Source of the DNA: Flavobacteriaceae bacterium
Lineage (GTDB): Bacteria; Bacteroidota; Bacteroidia; Flavobacteriales; Flavobacteriaceae
Direction: 5' to 3'
DNA: 64,000 nt
Assembly (NCBI GenBank): GCA_018402135.1
Contig: JAGYJF010000003.1
Coordinates: 682,001 to 746,000 of the forward strand
Shown here: in pieces, positions 44,473-47,214 of the stretch
Layout of the letters: each line of letters opens with the position of its first letter
Position numbering within the stretch: position 1 is the stretch's first letter
Position numbers and translations under genes: made by a program
The notes under the pieces: generated by a model
What the model was told of the DNA's origin: nothing
Databases searched by the model: none
Seen by the model: the letters and a program-made list of their open reading frames with translations, nothing else

Positions 44473-45726
44473 TTAAATTTTAAAAGCTGCTTTTATCTTA
44501 TCAACAAAATCAAGCACTTCCCAAGTAAATAATTCAACTTCAAGAACGACGTCTTGTCCATTAGGTTGAGAAAACGTTTTGGTGACCTTCTCTGGCGTTC
44601 TACCCATGTGCCCGTATGCCGCGGTTTCGCTATACATCGGTTGACGCAGTTTTAAACGGTCTTCAATTGCAGCGGGTCGCATGTCAAACAATTGCGTTAC
44701 TACCTCGGCTATTTCACTGTCGGTAATGTTGTACTCGCAGGTGCCGAAAGTGTTTACAAAGATATTCATGGGTTCAGCCACACCAATGGCATAACTTACT
44801 TGCACCAATACTTCACCGCATAATCCTGAAGCTACTAAGTTTTTGGCAATATGTCGTGTGGCATAAGCTGCACTGCGGTCTACTTTACTAGGATCTTTTC
44901 CTGAAAATGCGCCACCACCGTGTGCACCCTTTCCACCGTAAGTGTCCACAATAATTTTTCTACCTGTTAAGCCAGTATCGCCATGCGGACCGCCAATTAC
45001 AAATTTCCCTGTTGGATTGATATGATAGGTGATTGCATCATTAAATAAGGCTTGGATGTGTGTAGGTAATTTTGCAATAACTCTTGGAAGAAGAATGGTT
45101 TTAATATCTTTTCTTATGGTTTCCAACATGGCACCTTCTTCATCAAAAGGGTCGTGTTGTGTTGAAATAACAATAGCATCTATACGCTGAGGTACATTAT
45201 CATCGCTATATTCTATAGTTACTTGACTTTTAGAATCAGGTCTTAGATAAGTGATGTCTTTATTATCACGTCGCAATGCGGCCAATTCTTTTAAAATTAA
45301 ATGCGACAGCTCTAAGGCTAAAGGCATATAATTATCGGTTTCGTTGGTGGCATAGCCAAACATCATACCTTGATCGCCGGCACCTTGTTCTTCTTTGTTG
45401 GCTTTGTCTACACCGCGGTTTATATCTTCCGATTGCTCGTGTATGGCAGATAGAACACCGCACGAACCACCGTCAAACATATATTCGCTTTTGGTATAAC
45501 CTATTTTATTGATGGTGTCTCTTGCAATTTTTTGAACGTCTAAATAGGTATTTGATTTTACCTCGCCAGCTAAAATAACTTGGCCGGTGGTTACGAGTGT
45601 TTCGCAAGCAACCTTTGAATCTTTATCAAATGCCAAAAAATTGTCGATAAGTGCGTCACTAATTTGATCGGCGACTTTATCTGGATGACCTTCAGAAACA
45701 CTTTCCGAAGTAAATAAATAAGACAT
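44473..45726 (-). CDS. metK: S-adenosylmethionine synthetase
   Basis: [84 protein letters not shown]. Confidence 0.97.
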
Positions 45727-45772
45727 ACGTTCTTTTTTTAAAGGTTATTTAAACTAAGAAAAATTGTCGATA

Positions 45773-45820
45773 CAAAAAAATGCTAGAGAAGTGAATACTT
45801 ACTGCTTTAGCATTTTTTTG
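45773..45820 (-). promoter_or_regulatory. Strong hairpin upstream of metK (possible attenuator)
   Basis: CAAAAAAATGCTAGAG ... CTTTAGCATTTTTTTG: about 16 paired positions including G-T, with inner AAGT-GAAT-ACTT; T-run on the minus strand before metK. Confidence 0.6.
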
Positions 45821-45842
45821 TGAGGTTGCAATCAGACAAATT
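45801..45842 (-). ncRNA. Possible SAM-II/SAM-V-like aptamer core upstream of metK (tentative)
   Basis: Minus strand TTTGTCTGATTGCAACCTCACAAAAAAATGCTAAAGCAGT: TTTGT/ACAAA stem, ATTGC/GCAGT possible pseudoknot, TGATT and GCTAAAG elements reminiscent of SAM-II/SAM-V cores. Confidence 0.35.
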
Positions 45843-45920
45843 TTTCCTCTTTTTTTCTGGGACAAAAATACATATAAAATTATAATAATAAAATATTTGG
45901 TGTGATACTTATCCATCTAT

Positions 45921-45953
45921 AAAAAAAGCCTTCAGAATTTTAACTCCGAAGGC
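45921..45953 (-). terminator. Terminator downstream of amt
   Basis: GCCTTC...GAAGGC with T7 on the minus strand. Confidence 0.75.
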
Positions 45954-45981
45954 CTAACAAAACAAGAATAATTAATAAAAA

Positions 45982-47214
45982 TTAATGTTCATTCAATCTA
46001 TAATCTGGATAAGCATTCATACCGTGTTCATGGGCATCTAATCCTTCTAATTCTTCTTTTTCAGAAACTCTTATGCCTATTGTTTTCTTCAGGATGTATA
46101 TAATGATAAAGGTTGAAACAATACAAATGGCAGCGTAAGCTCCAACACCAATAAGTTGGCTTATCAATTGATCTAAACCAGCTAGGGAGCCAAATATACC
46201 AACGGCTAAAGTTCCCCAAATACCGCAAATTAAATGAACGGCTATAGCGCCAACAGGATCGTCTAATTTTAGTTTATCTATGAAGGCTACACCAAGAACT
46301 ATTAAAATTCCAGCAATACTCCCGATTAAAATAGCATCGGTAGGGCTCATTTGGTCGGCACCAGCTGTTATACCAACCAAACCACCAAGTATACCATTTA
46401 AAAACATGGTTAAATCAAGGTTTTTGTACAATACTGTTGAAAATAATGCGGCTACTACACCACCAGCAGCGGCGGCAAGACAAGTAGTTACCAGTGTGAG
46501 CGAAGTTAATCCTGGATCGGCAGATAATACAGAACCACCGTTAAAACCGAACCAACCCAACCAAAGTATTACAACACCCGCAGTGGCCAGTGGAATGTTA
46601 TGCCCCGGAATTGCTTGTGGCTTTCCATCTTTAAATTTGCCAATTCTAGAACCTAAAAGATATACGGTAATTAATGCGCCCCAACCACCTACTGAGTGTA
46701 CTAAGGTAGAGCCAGCAAAATCATAAAATGGTGTAGACAATTCACCTAAAAATCCGCCACCCCAATGCCATGACCCTGCAATTGGATAGATGAAACCAAC
46801 GTAAATAATAACAAAAATCATAAAGGCACCAATTTTCATACGTTCAGCAACGGCACCAGATACGATGGTGGCTGCAGTGGCTGCAAACATGCCTTGAAAT
46901 AAGAAGTCTGTCCAATAGGTGTAACCTTCGTTATAAGCTAAATCTAATGTGCCTTCAGCAGTTAACGGAGCGTCTAATCCTATGCCAGCAAAACCTAAAA
47001 AGCCATTAAAATCTCCAGGATACATTAAGTTGAAACCAACCAAACAATAGAGTAATAAGCCAATTGTGATTATAAATATATTTTTAAATAAAATATTAAT
47101 AGTGTTTTTTTGGCGTGTTAATCCTATTTCTAAAAATGCAAACCCTAAGTGCATGAAGAAAACCAGACCGGTACAGATCATCATCCATACATTATTTGTA
47201 GTTAATAATTCCAT
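45982..47214 (-). CDS. amt: Ammonium transporter
   Basis: FFQGMFAATAATIVSGAVAERMKIGAFMIF, GSWHWGGGFL, DFAGSTLVHSVGGWGALI, LWLGWFGFNGGS. Confidence 0.95.
   Translation of the reverse strand: MELLTTNNVWMMICTGLVFFMHLGFAFLEIGLTRQKNTINILFKNIFIITIGLLLYCLVGFNLMYPGDFNGFLGFAGIGLDAPLTAEGTLDLAYNEGYTYWTDFLFQGMFAATAATIVSGAVAERMKIGAFMIFVIIYVGFIYPIAGSWHWGGGFLGELSTPFYDFAGSTLVHSVGGWGALITVYLLGSRIGKFKDGKPQAIPGHNIPLATAGVVILWLGWFGFNGGSVLSADPGLTSLTLVTTCLAAAAGGVVAALFSTVLYKNLDLTMFLNGILGGLVGITAGADQMSPTDAILIGSIAGILIVLGVAFIDKLKLDDPVGAIAVHLICGIWGTLAVGIFGSLAGLDQLISQLIGVGAYAAICIVSTFIIIYILKKTIGIRVSEKEELEGLDAHEHGMNAYPDYRLNEH

Follow-up and report, generated by a model that had tools for sequence, protein, structure and literature searches.

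The window, by which we mean the whole 64,000-nucleotide stretch of a Flavobacteriaceae bacterium contig analyzed here, carries metK at positions 44473–45726 of the minus strand; the gene encodes an S-adenosylmethionine (SAM) synthetase of 417 amino acids (TIGR01034, an equivalog model, 509 bits; Pfam N, M and C domains). The upstream neighbor is an ammonium transporter gene identified by Pfam (45982–47214), after which a pattern scan finds a terminator-like site (45926–45955, minus strand). Next come a promoter-like element, TATTTTTG, of the Bacteroidetes TAnnTTTG type (45863–45870, minus strand) and, 3′ of it, a SAM-II long-loop aptamer (RF01726; 45797–45855, minus strand) whose end lies ~75 nucleotides before the metK start codon. 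The TAnnTTTG motif is found no more than 45 nucleotides 5′ of helix P1 of the aptamer in 120/125 leaders, mostly 18–25 nucleotides upstream, and in 0/125 control stretches. Given that position directly before the aptamer, which the window shares with these leaders, the aptamer is probably situated at the 5′ start of the metK mRNA. The original prediction required that metK transcription not start downstream of 45773, and the promoter-like element, as a sequence motif only, agrees with this.

That prediction had placed a SAM-II-type aptamer upstream of metK, and this proved correct at the level of the broader class. Comparison of the whole window with Rfam 15 yielded a single match at curated thresholds. 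It is to RF01726, the long-loop subclass, scores 70.7 bits against a gathering threshold of 44 (whole-window E = 1.2e-11) and covers model positions 1–60 of 60. A covariance-model match was thus obtained as anticipated, but the two models that had been named, classical SAM-II (RF00521) and SAM-V, were not listed in the scan even at E values up to 10. RF01726 was present in 285/301 genomes drawn from the same taxonomic family as the window and in 15/118 genomes drawn across the phylum, 11 of those 15 belonging to the window's own family. The SAM-II long loop was published in 2010, with occurrences listed from Bacteroidetes and from marine samples (Weinberg et al., 2010; PMC2864571); the window element shares its aptamer sequence, structure, phylum and covariance-model match, and the aptamer itself shows no difference. 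SAM-II long loops are expected in the leaders of SAM or methionine genes, and metK is the next gene downstream. By its model match, then, the metK leader carries a SAM-II-type aptamer of a known family in the expected place.

In the model alignment P1 encloses the long loop expected of this subclass and is formed by GAGG (45846–45849, minus strand) pairing with CCTC (45822–45825, minus strand), both unchanged throughout 31 aligned leaders. P2, assigned by analogy with SAM-II, is a predicted pseudoknot made of CTG/CAG (P2b) and GCA/TGC (P2a), which lie outside the nested Rfam structure; their 5′ sides fall in the strand CTGATTGCA (45827–45835, minus strand) and their 3′ sides in TGCTAAAGCAG (45802–45812, minus strand), as assigned from sequence and conservation. 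These strands are complementary and conserved but invariant, and covariation is therefore uninformative. The minus-strand sequence originally quoted is present at 45840–45801, and its motifs GATTGC and GCTAAA, on whose conservation in metK leaders the earlier proposal depended, are conserved in relatives. Its account of the aptamer's extent and helices did not hold: the 5′ strand of P1 was missed, the aptamer reaching 45855 and so lying partly outside the given range, and the second pseudoknot helix was called not obvious, the short P2 helices being overlooked. A proposed TTTGT/ACAAA stem does exist in the window sequence, but its ACAAA side varies in 30 relatives and the stem is unlikely to be a functional element.

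Further RF01726 copies and similar elements were seen in relatives. In small-genome relatives, second copies precede a gene for a QueF-type preQ1 synthase (confirmed by Pfam in L033, with L005 and L048 similar in appearance) or one for a DUF6580 membrane protein (in L047 by similarity, and as the second gene in L005 by Pfam), either of which would be an unexpected target for a SAM sensor. Locus L027 has another copy before a gene for a Cys/Met-metabolism PLP enzyme, an expected target, and in that leader, too, the aptamer 5′ strand has a complementary segment. In metK leaders of Sphingobacteriaceae (L149, L156 and L176) a related element occurs whose P1 is GTGG/CCAC and whose loop holds an additional stem; in L149 it scores below the RF01726 cut-off. 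In a Flavobacterium genome, metK is closely followed by a Flavo-1 RNA (RF01705, 70.5 bits; L144:1981–2059, plus strand).

The comparison drew on 131 loci of the window's taxonomic family, among them that of the window, together with one congener and 80 named metK loci; 165 leaders were usable. As had been stated originally, a hairpin CAAAAAAATGCTA.../...TAGCATTTTTTTG is present at 45821–45772 of the minus strand and overlaps the aptamer, and the strand GCTAAAGCAGT is able to enter either of the two structures; the quoted aptamer stretch and the hairpin both agree with the range given originally to within a few bases. In this hairpin, which we call stem B, the aptamer 3′ strand is paired with ACTTCTCTAGCATTTTTTTG. 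Folded alone, the 63-nucleotide hairpin segment has a free energy of −18.1 kcal/mol (z = −6.0), and 0/200 shuffles were as stable. The mean gain of stem B over shuffles in the 165 leaders is 2.95 kcal/mol (64/165 at p ≤ 0.05), and 89.9% of cells are paired in an alignment of 31 leaders that have the window's aptamer type, a level that falls to 34–50% when the whole structure is slid.

The hairpin had been read as an intrinsic terminator with a T-run, one that would form without SAM and be prevented by SAM binding, favoring metK expression. The stem is indeed stable and has a seven-T stretch at its 3′ arm. However, the T-run makes up the 3′ arm of the hairpin and pairs with the aptamer A-run, rather than forming a tail after the stem, and the terminator pattern scan makes no call at the hairpin. 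Of the aligned leaders only the window's has the T-run, the relatives keeping the hairpin without it, and a stem followed by an unpaired T-run and kept at orthologous loci was not found. Moreover, SAM-induced expression of a SAM-making gene would be the opposite of the usual sign. A terminator mechanism is in our view very improbable, and as the conserved role of the hairpin it was rejected on the unconserved T-run and the missing scan call. Because the hairpin is retained in relatives that have no T-run behind it, an anti-aptamer is the more likely conserved role; the sign paradox noted at the outset, in which SAM would favor read-through, is a product of taking the hairpin for a terminator.

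Many leaders carry two segments 3′ of the aptamer, the first pairing with the aptamer 3′ strand (stem B) and the second with the 5′ strand (stem A). Where both could be recognized, the anti-P2 segment precedes the anti-5′-strand segment in 91/99 leaders. In the window the latter is GACAATTTTTCTT (45756–45768, minus strand), complementary to aptamer GAGGAAAAATTTGTC; there stem B is strong and stem A degenerate, with p = 0.086 for the window alone and support coming from across the relatives. One clade has GUCAAAUCYU as its stem A segment and the clade of the window has GCAAUC..CA.AAUUUUUC; GTCAAATC occurs in 32/125 leaders versus 0.2 expected. The single congener examined has a clean, compensated stem A (p = 0.004) in which a variant base is matched by a changed partner, GAUUUGAC being preceded by AU and GUCAAAUC followed by AU. 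Judged from these complementarities, the leader 3′ of the aptamer is a compressed reverse complement of the aptamer, and this would explain a weak RF01726 match on the opposite strand (16.6 bits, 45760–45796, plus strand).

The anti-aptamer idea was formed on leaders L001–L031, and further leaders were used afterwards as a held-out set. Across 96 further leaders, pairing between the 5′ strand of the aptamer and the leader beyond it is 5.3 kcal/mol more favorable than with dinucleotide-shuffled leaders, 60/96 reaching p ≤ 0.05 where ~5 are expected. The query used for this had gained four bases once the held-out leaders had been seen (the original query gave 64/125 at p ≤ 0.05). The same test on 40 named Bacteroidota leaders gave a difference of 4.9 kcal/mol, with 27/40 at p ≤ 0.05. 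Native aptamer/leader combinations beat swapped ones by 1.78 kcal/mol, or ~11 permutation standard deviations, in a permutation that leaves shared ancestry in. At single positions, A/G in the aptamer accompanies T/C in the anti-strand (Fisher 1e-6 and 0.003). In alignment A2 both stems are ~90% paired; the aptamer hardly varies there, so that covariation of the stems within clades does not exceed that of shuffles. RNAalifold applied to the downstream part alone returned no consensus structure. A third hairpin, GACG/CGUC, which overlaps the anti-strand in one clade, was discarded, being 76% paired with covariation not above shuffles. Leaders of one clade in A2 also show a weak excess of pairing with metK codons +15 to +45 (2.3 kcal/mol over shuffles, p = 0.001), which may be a codon constraint.

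Complementarity of this kind might also be a by-product, for example of an old inverted duplication of the aptamer, leaving a SAM-II aptamer that regulates alone without a dedicated switch. That the leader reads as a degenerate opposite-strand aptamer, at the 16.6 bits given above, and that stem A is degenerate in the window both speak for such an origin. The complementarity is nevertheless kept across many genera despite diverging flanks and spacing, it tracks aptamer variants, and the nesting order described above is kept in 91/99 leaders; we consider a by-product improbable. The hairpin instead looks like one half of a conserved anti-aptamer, which SAM binding should displace.

Taken together, the comparisons show two mutually exclusive sets of predicted pairings, the aptamer on the one hand and stems A and B on the other. 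We think it likely that this is a SAM-II long-loop riboswitch with an anti-aptamer (stems A and B) at the metK mRNA 5′ end, through which SAM lowers metK expression. With little SAM, stems A and B would hold the aptamer open and metK would be expressed; SAM would lock P1 and P2, freeing the anti-aptamer strands, and metK expression would be lowered. In the window, the lowest-energy fold is P1 plus stem B without stem A, at −32.0 kcal/mol versus −29.6 kcal/mol for stems A and B together (2.4 above).

How the freed strands might act is clearest in a small-genome lineage, in which a GCTTT arm complements the aptamer AAAGC and also an AAAGC directly before the AUG. AAAGC precedes the AUG in 18/21 leaders with the GCTTT arm versus 3/144 without it. 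This clade was first picked by eye and was retested by selection on its 5′ arm alone. The freed anti-P2 arm, GUUGCUUU, finds a match in AAAGCAAC immediately upstream of the AUG, and SAM binding would thereby cover the start site; the match of the GCTTT arm to AAAGC implies that SAM would act as an OFF signal, the expected sign for metK. By a weaker inference, GACAAUUUUUCUUAGUUUAAA, once freed, could cover the start of metK in the window too. With the aptamer occupied, a possible hairpin over the start (GACA.UUCUU.UUUAAA / UUUAAA.AAGAA.UGUC; 45722–45768, minus strand) appears in the predicted fold and is not significant for the clade, and the predicted probability of the window AUG being unpaired is 0.79 with stem A enforced and 0.35 with the aptamer masked as occupied. 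Start-site blocking in the window's lineage is only suggestive (p about 0.06–0.2): it does not reach significance within the window's clade, and none was seen in the largest clade. General start-site sequestration by the downstream leader was rejected, 123 leaders giving no overall excess (60 below the shuffle mean), and by clade it is significant only in the GCTTT-arm lineage. Bacteroidetes mRNAs, those of F. johnsoniae included, are without Shine-Dalgarno sequences, and in F. johnsoniae structure around the start codon helps to tune initiation (PMC6847099), which makes structural start-site blocking plausible, not proven.

The same aptamer and anti-aptamer might instead have an output other than start-site blocking. 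Rho prefers to load on C-rich, G-poor RNA, and the freed strand, being C-rich and G-poor, may load Rho or alter mRNA stability. Leader composition (C 0.198 versus G 0.102) and start-site blocking that is not above chance in most clades are compatible with this output, while one lineage clearly shows start-site complementarity; we regard it as a possible but rather doubtful alternative to start-site blocking.

Returning to the riboswitch with an anti-aptamer, its aptamer has well-studied relatives. Classical SAM-II elements (Sinorhizobium meliloti metA and metZ, PMC9373788; environmental metX, PMC10907184) share with the window the principle of a P1 and P2 pseudoknot, and in them SAM lowers the expression of SAM-pathway genes (PMC9373788, PMC10907184). 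Those elements either cover a Shine-Dalgarno sequence that lies within the aptamer or, by prediction, form a terminator in the presence of SAM, whereas in the window the start lies ~75 nucleotides away and the anti-aptamer is separate. SAM-V (PMC6061858) is likewise a short H-type pseudoknot that senses SAM, but its model has no match in the window. The Rfam model of RF01726 is without a downstream anti-aptamer, whereas the window leader has one, and we found no description of such an element in the accessible part of the original report (PMC2864571). Nor did an incomplete literature search, which reached few subscription journals, find a published description of this anti-aptamer or of an RF01726 expression platform; the aptamer is known, and the switching half appears to be undescribed.

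Finally, it seems reasonably probable to us that an undescribed expression platform is common to the SAM-II long-loop leaders of Flavobacteriaceae. It would be a reverse complement of the aptamer, in compressed form, that unfolds both aptamer strands and is kept across genera as its output changes, this output being start-site blocking in one lineage. Most work on SAM-II concerns cases in which the Shine-Dalgarno sequence is masked directly by the ligand, and a conserved anti-aptamer would offer a testable account of the way such a riboswitch might operate in Bacteroidetes. It is the platform, rather than the aptamer, that is the part worth following.
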